From NCBI GenBank assembly GCA_945902115.1, contig CAMDLY010000010.1, forward strand, positions 1 to 56,957: 56,957 nt of DNA, read 5' to 3'. Positions 12,619 to 46,846 of the stretch are shown here, piece by piece. Both the position numbers and the translations under genes were made by a program. Each line of letters begins with the position of its first letter. Position 1 is the stretch's first letter. This stretch comes from Lishizhenia tianjinensis. GTDB taxonomy: Bacteria; Bacteroidota; Bacteroidia; Flavobacteriales_D; Crocinitomicaceae. The notes under the pieces were generated by a model that worked only from the letters and a program-made list of their open reading frames with translations, made no database searches and was not told the origin of the DNA.

Positions 12619-13551
12619 CTATTTTAACGCATTATTTTTATTCCGTTGTTTTGCAAGTATACTGGGTAAATTTGCAAGGAGTATTCCCAAAAGAATGATG
12701 AACATTGAGCCTATTTGTTGCCCTGTGATGCTTTCTCCGAATTGTAAACCGATGAAAATGGAAACTATCGGCATCAAATAAGTAACACTACTCGCAAATA
12801 AAGCGGATGATAGTCTAATCGTGGTATTAAATAATATGGTAGCAACTGCAGTTCCGAATAAAGCGAGAATTACAATAGCAGTAAGGCCATCGGTAGCAAG
12901 TGGATTATTAGATATCACATTCTGGGTCTCTAATAGGAATACAATAATAAGTGATGGGACCCAAATTAATGACAAAGAAATACTAGTTACTTCCATGGAA
13001 GAATAATGTTGTAGTTTATATCGGATAATACTGAGACTTATTGCGTAACAAAGAGTAGCTAATACCACAGCTAGAATATGGGTTAAATCTCCTGACAAGG
13101 TACTTTGCTTTCCTGTTAAAACAAGTAAAACAATCCCTACGGTTCCTAGTAGAGCTCCAAAATATTGATAATTCGAAAGACGCTGTTGGAAAAAGAGTAA
13201 TCCAAGTATGATGGTGAAAATAGGTGTAAAACTATTTAACATACCTGCTAATCCAGAAGTGATACTTGTTTCTGCATAAGTAAATAAAAAAGAAGGAAAA
13301 AAACTTCCACAAGTTCCCACGAGAGAAAAGTAAATCAGGTCTTTGGTTGATTTTAAGCCTTTCCAGGCTTTAATTGCCCAAGGCAAGAGTAAGGTCGAAG
13401 CAATAAGCATGCGAAGAGCACCCACTTGTGGGGCACTGAAGATCAATGCTCCGGCATCTCCATACATGCCTTGTTTCATCAAAATGAATGAGCTTCCCCA
13501 AATAATAGATAGTATTATTAAGAGTATCCAGCTTTTTAAAATGTTTGACAC
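12619..13551 (-). CDS. DMT-superfamily (EamA) membrane transporter
   Basis: This 310-residue integral membrane protein has about ten hydrophobic helices in two repeats of the EamA/RhaT type. The first repeat begins SWILLIILSIIWGSSFILMKQG, a pattern typical of the family. Members export amino acids, purines or other metabolites, and the substrate cannot be read from sequence. The start is GTG at 13551; no alternative start exists before the first helix. A TAATTTTG -7 element ends four bases upstream of that GTG, which suggests a leaderless transcript. It is divergent from mraZ across a 258-base gap. Confidence 0.82.
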   Translation of the reverse strand: MSNILKSWILLIILSIIWGSSFILMKQGMYGDAGALIFSAPQVGALRMLIASTLLLPWAIKAWKGLKSTKDLIYFSLVGTCGSFFPSFLFTYAETSITSGLAGMLNSFTPIFTIILGLLFFQQRLSNYQYFGALLGTVGIVLLVLTGKQSTLSGDLTHILAVVLATLCYAISLSIIRYKLQHYSSMEVTSISLSLIWVPSLIIVFLLETQNVISNNPLATDGLTAIVILALFGTAVATILFNTTIRLSSALFASSVTYLMPIVSIFIGLQFGESITGQQIGSMFIILLGILLANLPSILAKQRNKNNALK

Positions 13552-13555
13552 GATG

Positions 13556-13563
13556 CAAAATTA
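13556..13563 (-). promoter_or_regulatory. -7 promoter element of the DMT transporter gene
   Basis: The minus strand reads TAATTTTG, then CATC, then the GTG start. It matches TAnnTTTG and shares the four-base spacing to the start codon seen at lnt, mtnB, rpe and gpsA. No clear -33 element was seen. Confidence 0.45.
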
Positions 13564-13640: not shown

Positions 13641-13655
13641 CCCACTAAGTCCCAC
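13641..13655 (-). promoter_or_regulatory. Putative MraZ box pair 1 (GTGGG-N5-GTGGG)
   Basis: On the plus strand CCCAC occurs at 13641-13645 and 13651-13655; on the minus strand this is GTGGG-ACTTA-GTGGG. MraZ proteins are known to bind direct TGGG-type repeats with five-base spacers in their own promoter region. Only two repeats are present rather than three. The site is about 155 bases upstream of mraZ and 90 bases upstream of the divergent transporter. Confidence 0.55.
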
Positions 13656-13731
13656 TAATCTAAAAAAGCCCATAAAATATAAGAAAATAAAGATTTTTTA
13701 TTCTCAAATATAAGCCATTACTTTGCATTAA

Positions 13732-13747
13732 GTTAATAGTTATTAAC
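13732..13747. repeat. 16-base palindrome upstream of mraZ
   Basis: GTTAATA at 13732-13738 and TATTAAC at 13741-13747 form a perfect 7-base inverted repeat around GT. It lies between the two GTGG repeat pairs and could be a dimer-type operator. It is AT-rich and small, so chance is possible. Confidence 0.4.
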
Positions 13748-13760
13748 AATTTAAAATACA

Positions 13761-13775
13761 GTGGTAAAAAGTGGT
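13761..13775 (+). promoter_or_regulatory. Putative MraZ box pair 2 (GTGGT-N5-GTGGT)
   Basis: GTGGT occurs at 13761-13765 and again at 13771-13775, separated by AAAAA. Spacing and phase match pair 1 and the known MraZ site, but in the opposite orientation and with T in the fifth position. It ends 34 bases before the mraZ ATG, a good position for autoregulation. Confidence 0.55.
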
Positions 13776-13809
13776 AATTATTCTACTAAATTTACCCATT
13801 ATTTGAGCT

Positions 13810-14268
13810 ATGGCAGGATTAGTAGGAGAATTTGAAGTAAAACTTGACGAGAAAGGTCGGTTTCTATTTCCTTCCGGTTTACGGAAGCAGCTCCCTACTG
13901 CGTCCCAGCGAGATTTCATGTTGAATAAGGGTTTTGAAGATTGTTTGACTTTGTTTCCTCTCTCAGATTGGGAGGGAATAAGCGAAAAGCTTTCTAAAAT
14001 GAACTTATTTAAGCCAAAGAACAGAATGTTCTACCGTTTATTTCACCAAGGTGCCAAACAGGTTTGCTTGGATAATGCAGGAAGGGTGTTGATTCCCGTT
14101 GCATTGATGGAAAGGGTAGGGCTTGTTGCTGAGGTTATGCTGATTGCATACAACGACAGAATTGAAGTCTGGGACAAATCCAAATACTTCGAGATGATCG
14201 AAGGAAACATGGCCGATTTCGCTGATTTAGCGGATGAAGTAATGGGTGATTTAGACAATGGAGAATAA
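13810..14268 (+). CDS. mraZ: Transcriptional regulator MraZ
   Basis: This 152-residue protein is MraZ, a ring-forming DNA-binding protein that regulates the dcw cluster from its first position. It contains the two AbrB-like half-repeats expected of the family, each with its DxxxR motif: DEKGR at residues 13-17 and DNAGR at residues 88-92. Length fits the family (about 140-155). The start at 13810 is supported by MAGLVGEFEVKLDEKGR and by GTGG direct repeats 34-49 bases upstream. The stop overlaps rsmH by 11 bases, and the whole downstream cluster to yqeY appears to be co-transcribed. Confidence 0.95.
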   Translation: MAGLVGEFEVKLDEKGRFLFPSGLRKQLPTASQRDFMLNKGFEDCLTLFPLSDWEGISEKLSKMNLFKPKNRMFYRLFHQGAKQVCLDNAGRVLIPVALMERVGLVAEVMLIAYNDRIEVWDKSKYFEMIEGNMADFADLADEVMGDLDNGE

Positions 14269-15169
14269 TACGGCATACCACATACCAGTGCTCTTCAACG
14301 AGTGTATCGAAGGTTTGAATATCAAGCCTAACGGCGTTTATGTCGATGTTACCTTTGGGGGTGGTGGGCATTCAAGGGCTATATTCGAAAAATTAAACGC
14401 TAAGGGAAAATTACTTGCCTTTGACCAAGACGAAGAGGCCAAGAAAAACACTTGGGAAGCACCTAATTTTACGCTAATTCCCGCCAATTTCGCATATCTA
14501 AAAAATCATTTAAAACTTCATAGAATTACAGGTGTCGACGGGATCTTGGCGGATTTAGGAGTTTCTTCCCATCAATTTGACGAACCAACAAGAGGTTTCA
14601 GTATTCGAGAAAATGCGCGATTAGACATGCGTATGAATAAACAAGCTTCCTTATCGGCGTTTGAGGTAGTTAACCAATACGAGGAATCGCAATTAGCAAG
14701 CATTTTTAGGCATTATGGCGAATTAAATGCCTCTCGGGCCATGGCCGCGACTATTACCGCAAAACGTGTAGATAGCGACATTGAAACCACCGCCCAATTA
14801 ATGGAAGTATTACGTCGCTTTGCTCCGAAATTTAAGGAGCATAAATTTTATGCACAAGTATTTCAGGCTATTAGGATTGAAGTGAATCAGGAATTAGAGG
14901 TCTTAAAGGCAATGTTATCTCAAGCGGTAGATCTATTGAATCCTGGCGGAAGATTGGTGGTAATGTCTTATCACTCACTAGAAGATAGGATCGTGAAAAA
15001 TTTTATGAAACGAGGGTCCTTTGATGGGAATATTGAGAAAGATTTTTTCGGGAATATGCTAAAGCCACTTCGCGAAGTTACACGTCATCCCATGGTGCCA
15101 AGTGAAGAGGAAATACAGAAAAATTCTAGATCGAGAAGCGCAAAACTACGCATAGCAGACAAAATATGA
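14258..15169 (+). CDS. rsmH: 16S rRNA (cytosine(1402)-N(4))-methyltransferase
   Basis: This 303-residue methyltransferase (formerly MraW) modifies C1402 in the ribosomal P site using S-adenosylmethionine. It has the HIPVLFNECIEGL opening, the glycine-rich SAM loop DVTFGGGGHS, the GILADLGVSSHQFD block, and the C-terminal VMSYHSLEDRIVKNF motif with the SRSAKLR ending. Length is usual. It starts within the last codons of mraZ and ends with an ATGA overlap into the FtsL-like gene, so its translation is coupled on both sides. Confidence 0.96.
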   Translation: MENNTAYHIPVLFNECIEGLNIKPNGVYVDVTFGGGGHSRAIFEKLNAKGKLLAFDQDEEAKKNTWEAPNFTLIPANFAYLKNHLKLHRITGVDGILADLGVSSHQFDEPTRGFSIRENARLDMRMNKQASLSAFEVVNQYEESQLASIFRHYGELNASRAMAATITAKRVDSDIETTAQLMEVLRRFAPKFKEHKFYAQVFQAIRIEVNQELEVLKAMLSQAVDLLNPGGRLVVMSYHSLEDRIVKNFMKRGSFDGNIEKDFFGNMLKPLREVTRHPMVPSEEEIQKNSRSRSAKLRIADKI

Positions 15170-44666: not shown

Positions 44667-44897
44667 GTGTCTACCATTGATGATTTACATATCGGAGAAA
44701 AAGCTATCGTATTGACGGTATCTCCCTCGGCGATATGTTCAAAAATGGCAGAGATGGGTTTGGTAGAAGGTGTCGAAGTGTGTGTTGCTTTCAAAGCGCC
44801 ATTTGGCGATCCAATAGCCATAGAGTTGAATGGCACCTTATTATCTTTAAGAAGAAAAGAAGCATCATTGGTTAATATCAGATTATTGCAAACATGA
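44667..44897 (+). CDS. feoA: Ferrous iron transport protein FeoA
   Basis: This 76-residue SH3-like protein is the cytoplasmic partner of FeoB. It has LHIGEKAIVLTVS, the MAEMGLVEGVEVCVAFKAPF segment and DPIAIELNGTLLSLRRKEA, all usual in FeoA. It starts with GTG and overlaps feoB by four bases (ATGA). It has a domain of its own rather than the fused FeoA-FeoB arrangement seen in some Bacteroidota. Confidence 0.94.
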   Translation: MSTIDDLHIGEKAIVLTVSPSAICSKMAEMGLVEGVEVCVAFKAPFGDPIAIELNGTLLSLRRKEASLVNIRLLQT

Positions 44898-46846
44898 AAG
44901 TAGCATTATTTGGTAATCCGAATACGGGAAAAAGTTCACTTTTCAACCACTTAACGGGTCTTAAGCAACATGTGGGAAATTTTCCTGGCGTAACAGTGGA
45001 GAAAAAAATAGGTTTGCTAAAATTTGGGGATATAAATCATTCGATTATTGATTTCCCAGGGGTTTATTCCATTTATCCGAGTAGCGAAGATGAACAGGTT
45101 GTTTATGATGTAATTAATAATCCCGAACATAAGGATTATCCTGATGTGGCATGTGTAGTATTAGATAGCTCCAATTTATCACGAAATTTACTCTTACTAT
45201 CTCAACTATACGATTTGAAAATCCCACTAGTGGCTGTTTTGAATATGTGGGATCTTGTGGATAAAAGGAATATTCTTGTCGATGTTGAAAAATTAGGGAT
45301 AGTATTTCCTGGTGTAGAGTTTATACAGACTAATGCAAGAGTAGGTTTTGGAAAAGAACGATTACTTTCTGCTTTATTTAATAGCACCAGTGCAACAGTT
45401 TATTGCCCTACAAAAGACAATTACATTCCAGCAGTTCTTGATGACAAAGTAGCCCAAGAAGAGGATATAAAATTTCGCTATACTTGGATCAATGAACGAA
45501 TTTCTCAAATTGTTAGATCAAAGCCAAATGTGGATGACAGGACTAAGAAATTAGATCGCTTATTAACTCACCCTATTATCGGATACTTTATATTTTTATC
45601 CATTTTGTTTCTGGTATTTCAATTCATATTCAGCTTTGCCGTTGTACCTATGGACTTTATTGACCTGAAGTTTTCTCAATTTTCCAATTGGGTAGGAATG
45701 AATATGCCAGCGGGGTTACTTACTGACTTAGTATCACAGGGTATTATTCCAGGAATTGGAGGTGTCGTGGTGTTCATTCCGCAGATTGCATTACTTTTTT
45801 TCTTTCTTGCTATTTTAGAAGAGACAGGATATTTGTCGAGAGTGGTGTTTATAATGGATCGATTAATGCGACCTTTTGGCTTGAATGGAAAAAGTGTTGT
45901 CCCGCTGATGTCAAGTGTTGCCTGCGCAATTCCTGGGGTAATGGCTACGAGAACAATTGCCGATTGGAAAGAACGCCTCATTACTATTTTAGTTTCCCCC
46001 TTGATGAGTTGCAGTGCAAGAATACCAGTATTTACCTTGCTTATTTCACTCAGTATACCTCAAAAGCAGGTCGCCGGGATATTTAATTTACAAGGTTTAG
46101 TACTAATGGCTTTGTATCTATTAGGAATTGTATCAGCCTTATTGGTTTCTATAATCTTGAATCGCCTTATCACTAGGAAATCAGCAGGATTTTTACTCCT
46201 TGAATTACCGAGTTACAAAAATCCTAGATGGACAAATGTATTGCTAAATGTATGGGAGAAAGTCAGAATTTTCTCGTGGGATGCTGGAAAGGTGATTTTA
46301 GTGATTTCTGTATTACTATGGGCACTAGCGTCTTTTGGCCCAGGAGATAATATGGAAAAAGCGGCCTCAAATTGCCAGTCAACGCAAGACTTCGCTCGTT
46401 TAAGTCAACAAGATCAGGAGCAACTTATAGCAAGTAAAAAACTTGAAAACTCTTACATAGGGATAATGGGGAAGGGCTTGGAACCCGTTATAAAACCTCT
46501 CGGCTATGATTGGAAAATCGGAATCTCGTTAATCACATCTTTTGCAGCAAGAGAGGTTTTTGTTGGATCATTGGCAACGATTTATGCAGTACATGATGAA
46601 AGCGCGGATAATCTGCGTTTAATTGATAGAATGAAACGTGAAAAAAAATTAGATGGCACCCCTGTATATTCGTTAGCTTCTGGATCAAGTTTAATGGTAT
46701 TCTATGTTTTCGCGATGCAATGTATGGCTACTTTGGCTGTGGTAAAGCGAGAAACCAACTCATGGAAATGGCCGCTTATTCAAATTCTCTTTATGGGAAT
46801 AATGGCATACAGTGCTGCTCTGCTAACTTTTTTGACCTTGTCTTAA
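44894..46846 (+). CDS. feoB: Ferrous iron transporter FeoB
   Basis: This 650-residue inner-membrane transporter imports Fe2+. The N-terminal G domain has the P-loop GNPNTGKSS at residues 7-15, the DFPGVYS segment and the NMWD guanine-specificity motif. A membrane domain with two Gate regions follows (GIGGVVVFIPQIALLFFFLA; SVACAIPGVMATRTI; MSCSARIPVFTLLI) with the conserved cysteines in SSVACAIPG and MSCSARIP. The periplasmic loop around residues 480-530 is larger than minimal. feoC is absent. A small Cys-rich protein of the kind often encoded next to feoB lies instead at 35233-35379. Confidence 0.96.
   Translation: MKVALFGNPNTGKSSLFNHLTGLKQHVGNFPGVTVEKKIGLLKFGDINHSIIDFPGVYSIYPSSEDEQVVYDVINNPEHKDYPDVACVVLDSSNLSRNLLLLSQLYDLKIPLVAVLNMWDLVDKRNILVDVEKLGIVFPGVEFIQTNARVGFGKERLLSALFNSTSATVYCPTKDNYIPAVLDDKVAQEEDIKFRYTWINERISQIVRSKPNVDDRTKKLDRLLTHPIIGYFIFLSILFLVFQFIFSFAVVPMDFIDLKFSQFSNWVGMNMPAGLLTDLVSQGIIPGIGGVVVFIPQIALLFFFLAILEETGYLSRVVFIMDRLMRPFGLNGKSVVPLMSSVACAIPGVMATRTIADWKERLITILVSPLMSCSARIPVFTLLISLSIPQKQVAGIFNLQGLVLMALYLLGIVSALLVSIILNRLITRKSAGFLLLELPSYKNPRWTNVLLNVWEKVRIFSWDAGKVILVISVLLWALASFGPGDNMEKAASNCQSTQDFARLSQQDQEQLIASKKLENSYIGIMGKGLEPVIKPLGYDWKIGISLITSFAAREVFVGSLATIYAVHDESADNLRLIDRMKREKKLDGTPVYSLASGSSLMVFYVFAMQCMATLAVVKRETNSWKWPLIQILFMGIMAYSAALLTFLTLS

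Follow-up and report, generated by a model that had tools for sequence, protein, structure and literature searches.

Two opposed GTGG repeat pairs upstream of mraZ, conserved in the Crocinitomicaceae, as a putative variant of the MraZ operator

In a 56,957-nucleotide stretch of the Lishizhenia tianjinensis genome (assembly GCA_945902115.1, contig CAMDLY010000010.1, positions 1 to 56,957; hereafter the window) mraZ is preceded by two pairs of GTGG repeats that face in opposite directions, and we found this arrangement to be real, conserved and specific to mraZ. We regard it as a putative variant of the MraZ operator; among the matches listed from the open-licence literature, the titles and the beginnings of the abstracts made no mention of opposed or distal MraZ sites. 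The reading we prefer, which in our judgment has about an even chance of being right, is that the sequences form a bipartite operator whose two opposed pairs may be bridged by a ring-shaped MraZ.

Read directly from the window, the distal site (positions 13,641-13,655) is CCCACTAAGTCCCAC and the proximal site (13,761-13,775) is GTGGTAAAAAGTGGT, with a gap of 105 bases between the two sites. The original prediction of two opposed GTGG pairs of ten-base period, 105 bases apart and with two units each, was exact in both coordinates and letters when we re-read the sequence. Within these sites the putative distal MraZ-box pair (GTGG-N6-GTGG, GTGGGACTTAGTGG) occupies 13,642-13,655 on the minus strand and the putative proximal pair, of the same pattern (GTGGTAAAAAGTGG), occupies 13,761-13,774 on the plus strand, giving a start-to-start distance of 119 bp; the proximal pair starts 49 bases before the mraZ ATG. 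The mraZ gene itself (13,810-14,268, plus strand, ATG at 13,810) encodes a 152-residue protein with matches to two MraZ domains (PF02381), and across 11 aligned family sequences, that of the window among them, its DXXXR motifs D13-R17 and D88-R92, which we take to be the DNA-binding motifs of MraZ, were invariant, so that the same genome encodes a cognate MraZ with intact motifs. Downstream are rsmH (mraW; 14,258-15,169, plus strand), which comes next in the division and cell-wall cluster, and then an FtsL-like gene. We assigned TAAATTTA (13,787-13,794, plus strand) as the likely -7 element of the mraZ promoter from TAnnTTTG, which we take to be the Bacteroidota -7 consensus, and 12 bases separate the last proximal box from this element. 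On the other side of the distal pair, and 91 bases from it, is the GTG start (13,551) of a divergent EamA-family transporter (12,619-13,551, minus strand), for which the likely -7 element is TAATTTTG (13,556-13,563, minus strand).

Conservation of the repeats was followed through the mraZ upstream regions of relatives, mraZ being located in 80 of the 86 genomes of the window's genus and in 144 of the 150 sampled from the family. Both pairs were present in 65/65 distinct upstreams from the same genus and in 58/59 from the rest of the family, counts that omit three too-short upstreams (L027, L028, and L059) and five duplicates. Once the named loci were included, both pairs, in opposed orientation, were carried by 136 of 137 distinct mraZ upstreams of the family; the sole exception (L049) has no exact pair at its proximal site, which reads GTAGTAAGAAGTGG. 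The alignment of relatives that had been proposed as a check on the GTGG repeats therefore found them conserved. All 135 family sequences counted had two proximal boxes (one more being without an exact pair), and in 135/135 the distal pair was opposed. When we compared conservation column by column, using the box columns as the anchor and hence not as evidence themselves, the distal pair was a conserved island with hardly conserved flanks, and around the proximal pair, whose spacer is nearly constant within the family, conservation extended over the boxes, the promoter-like stretch TAATTTTA and a block CGTTA-AA-TTAT-AACA. We also saw in the family consensus a conserved GAAAC/GTAAC-TTTT block between the two pairs, ~50 bases before the proximal boxes. 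In many relatives (e.g., L007) a reversed half box, CCA[C/T], lies at bases 21-24 from the start of the first proximal GTGG and overlaps the promoter side; the window itself reads TCTA at this position.

A single GTGG pair is not evidence by itself, because GTGG-N6-GTGG occurs at 30 places genome-wide as against 45 for the reversed-pattern control, and we rejected the single pair as a signal in its own right on these counts. Within the window the pattern occurs five times, as against 0.45 expected from shuffles; one GTGG pair, at 13,307, sits within the transporter, and another, at 45,247, sits in a coding frame (44,894-46,846). At the latter place (45,247-45,264, minus strand) the pair is followed by a perfect TTATCCACA, which we took as chance. 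The composite is another matter: a search for both pairs at a start-to-start distance of 99-128 found it in 56 of 60 family genomes, once per genome (the pattern is palindromic, and each match, listed on both strands, was counted as one), with 0 matches to the control. All 56 composites sit 30-52 bases before mraZ, and the family genomes that lack one are G112, G113, G115, and G139.

We then scanned 299 genomes of the order for the composite at 104-133 bp, the distances to which the scan was restricted in families f3, f9, and f10. By per-family totals counted by hand, it was found in 113/117 genomes of f1, 35/39 of f3, 43/114 of f9 (the remaining 71 had no match at 104-133 bp), 3/3 of f10 and 1/1 of f6, and in 0/25 from the other families sampled; the reversed-pattern control matched in 5 of the 299. 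The composite was at mraZ in all 35 cases in f3 and in 42 of 43 in f9, the exception being G492. Matches away from mraZ were this one and second matches in G296, G279, and G523; G074 also has a second match, the position of which is not listed. Among 33 sequences from other orders, 25 had an exact proximal pair, 22 of them as three direct boxes and 3 as two, and one of the 33 had an opposed pair 60-160 bp upstream; from other classes, six of seven sequences had a proximal pair and one of these six an opposed pair. Overall, 232 sequences had a proximal pair, and 185 of these had an opposed pair 60-160 bases upstream, including 27 f9 loci that were picked by pattern and whose distal pair is thus present by construction. 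In the same 232 sequences there was no same-direction pair 60-160 bp upstream, and opposed pairs at 160-330 bp numbered five in total. Because of this distribution across families, orders and classes, it is likely that the three-box direct array is ancestral in the class and that the two-plus-two layout is a feature of part of the order.

The suggestion that the pairs are MraZ-box-like was supported by their ten-base period, by their position in front of mraZ and by the three direct GTGG boxes found in roughly that position in 22 of the 33 sequences from other orders. As in known MraZ operators, the repeats have a GTG/GTGG core in both pairs and lie immediately before mraZ, where the division cluster starts, in the window and in relatives alike. 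One paper (PMC7761207) describes repression of the cluster by E. coli MraZ via a repeated sequence upstream, and in Burkholderia cenocepacia four MraZ-bound 7-nt repeats with 3-nt spacers and hence a ten-base period; it places MraZ in the AbrB-like superfamily and, citing work in Mollicutes, considers it probable that each such repeat carries a toroidal MraZ octamer. In Mollicutes the MraZ boxes are direct repeats of AAAGTG[T/G] (PMC8475190); the proximal pair here reads AAAAAGTGG. Solved MraZ chains exist (1n0e, 9qlr, 9qlg, 9sx6 and others). The likeness to E. coli, Mollicutes and B. cenocepacia thus lies in the direct GTG/GTGG repeats before mraZ; however, those systems have one array in one direction, with at least three repeats in an uninterrupted run, whereas here there are two proximal boxes and an opposed pair ~105-133 bases upstream. 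In addition, the E. coli and B. cenocepacia sites are located downstream of the -10 box (PMC7761207), whereas here the site is upstream of the likely -7 element.

The distance between the two pairs is quantized. Start-to-start distances in 215 cases (families f1, f3, f9, and f10) fell into three groups, with 33 at 105-110, 143 at 116-124 and 39 at 128-133, and none of the 215 had a distance of 111-115 or 125-127; one locus that spans an N run (G474) was dropped from this tally. By family, the distances were 106-110 or 116-124 in f1, 105-108, 117-119 or 128-129 in f3, 119-122 or 130-133 in f9 and 107 in f10, the last three within the scanned range of 104-133. Single sequences of other families had distances of 78, 94 and 96, and of 176 and 209, beyond the usual range. 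A step of about one helical turn was seen even within single genera, with 107-108 or 117-118 in genus g54 and 108-109 or 118-120 in genus g19. In three-box proximal arrays the distance changes by ten depending on which box is taken (in at least 12 f9 sequences it is 130-132 when measured to the first pair and 140-142 when measured to the last, and those of f10 and G247 behave likewise), and the empty bins stay empty. Phase concentration at the genus level outside f1 was 0.70 at 11.0 bp (n=21, P=2e-5) and 0.58 at 10.5 bp (P=0.0008), and it was 0.83 at 11.0 bp (n=8, P=0.002) when each cluster of a family was entered as a single value set by hand; the P-values assume a uniform null and take genera as independent, with cluster means set by hand. 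With bins fixed before the scan (94-97, 104-108, 116-120, and 127-131), 51 of 63 unseen genomes, G474 included, fell within them, 22/22 in f3 and 29/41 in f9; since the bins covered half of the scanned range, the f3 result carries most weight. The 12 misses, all in f9, were one or two bases outside the bins (one at 122, ten at 132, and one at 133). In the window's own genus distances are spread over 106-124, often 120-124. The distance is therefore constrained and helically phased as expected of a looping pair, but the phasing is loose in the window's genus. Of the looped control that had been proposed, the set distance stood, as its quantization fits looped or bridged control; looping itself we infer from it.

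Two distant operators at a set, helically phased distance are a feature of looping repressors of the lac, gal and AraC type, and the two candidate operators here share this property; they differ in that the predicted regulator is MraZ and that each operator is a direct-repeat pair. Bacteroidota promoter spacing presumably puts the -33 region of mraZ inside the proximal pair, and because of this MraZ bound there would block polymerase. In a bridged operator of this kind two adjacent subunits of one MraZ ring would bind the proximal pair, covering the predicted -33 region and shutting the mraZ promoter, and the distal pair, opposed and one loop away, would simultaneously be bound by that ring or by another stacked on it. 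A ring that offers many binding faces could accommodate such a second pair, and bridging would compensate for the presence of two proximal boxes rather than three. It is the opposed orientation of the distal pair together with its phased distance that suggests a role in ring bridging. Besides the loose phasing in the window's genus, the 12 misses in f9, the 71 f9 genomes with no match and the deviant distances in single sequences of other families, two points speak against bridging: a distal activator site contacting polymerase would show helical phasing as well, and, if the subunits on one ring all face the same way round, opposed boxes would probably need a crossed loop, which would be strained at 105 bp.

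The distal pair might instead control the divergent gene or opposite-way transcription, so that there would be two independent back-to-back operators, a reading that the mirroring of the mraZ side by the distal orientation would fit and that we think quite improbable. We compared 78 sequences with the divergent EamA transporter, seeking the distal pair 130-190 bases before mraZ, and found it 27-317 bases from the transporter start (SD 44.2), whereas the distance from distal to proximal pair was 109-124 (SD 3.0). On these spreads we rejected the distal pair as a general transporter operator; in the window itself the distal pair and the transporter's likely -7 element are separated by 78 bases. 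A separation of no more than 27-28 bases between transporter start and distal pair occurs in seven of the 78 sequences, and because of this closeness the pair could touch or overlap the transporter promoter there too and serve both directions. Judged by eye, L080, L081, L090 and their near relatives seem to have the transporter start very near the distal pair. The distal pair is also independent of its neighbour. Where family members lack the transporter, the longest frame within 700 bases varies from genome to genome, and in 11 family sequences (10 clusters) the neighbour frame faces the same way as mraZ and the distal pair is kept; these frames were picked by length, so that a few may be spurious, and the translations of seven of the 11 were inspected. 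Since L049 alone has no exact pair, all family sequences with a changed neighbour keep the distal pair. Bidirectional control touching the transporter, which the original prediction had raised, was hence not supported as a general rule, given the variable distance to the transporter, the near-fixed one between the pairs and a pair that outlasts changes of neighbour.

The main rival to bridging is that MraZ binds the distal pair separately, to activate from upstream, with no bridge to the proximal pair, which we consider rather unlikely. In Mycoplasma gallisepticum MraZ is said to raise expression of the cluster, which would agree with such a role, as would the need of activator sites, too, for a set helical face and the conserved block between the pairs, GAAAC and then CGTTA-AA-TTAT-AACA. 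In the same organism MraZ overexpression was linked to more FtsZ (PMC8475190). However, activation alone leaves the opposed orientation unexplained, and by eye the family consensus has no second promoter in the mraZ direction beside the distal pair. Least probable in our view, and very unlikely, is that the pairs serve as stem arms, in RNA or in a cruciform, or as the target of some other protein than MraZ. The 16-base arms are indeed near-perfect inverted repeats in part of the relatives (of 136, five pair at 16 positions, 29 at 15, and 35 at 14), but the distal spacer drifts within A/T against a nearly constant proximal one, so that pairing is not maintained beyond the GTGG cores, and on this ground we rejected an RNA stem between the arms; the distal arm, moreover, is upstream of the predicted transcript. 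Also against this reading, the proximal boxes occupy the position of the direct array in other orders.

Between the two pairs lies a further element, TTWTYMACA, represented in the window by the DnaA-box-like candidate TTATTAACA (13,740-13,748, plus strand) in ten-base register with the proximal boxes. In the 45-base stretch that leads up to the first proximal box the element was found in 60/65 sequences of the genus, 52/58 from the rest of the family, 10/13 named loci, 37/39 from the order, 22/28 pattern-chosen f9 loci and 15/25 from the class, and in none of six sequences from other classes. Counted back from that box, its position was mostly 11, 20-22 or 31-32 bases (four were at 23 or 40), a ten-base register, and further upstream it was less frequent (0 to 0.16 per 45 bases, both strands). 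It occurs also in sequences without a distal pair. The DnaA-box-like form TTATCCACA was present in 10 order sequences, and the family form, TTATCAACA, differs at one position from what we take to be the DnaA-box consensus. Elsewhere in this genome there was no copy of TTWTYMACA in 3480 bases around dnaA, a two-copy cluster on contig C6 falls within a coding frame, and the TTWTCMACA form occurs 326 times as against 221 for its reversed control. It is conceivable, if unlikely, that a MraZ ring bridging the opposed pairs one phased loop apart would enclose a DnaA-like protein in ten-base register inside the loop, and that one complex reading both the MraZ level and the replication initiator would thereby switch expression of the division genes.

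MraZ is, to our knowledge, a very widespread bacterial regulator for which the reason for a closed ring is not settled. If the bridged bipartite operator is true, a second operator kept in opposed orientation and at a quantized distance would give the MraZ ring such a reason, namely the holding of two stretches of DNA.
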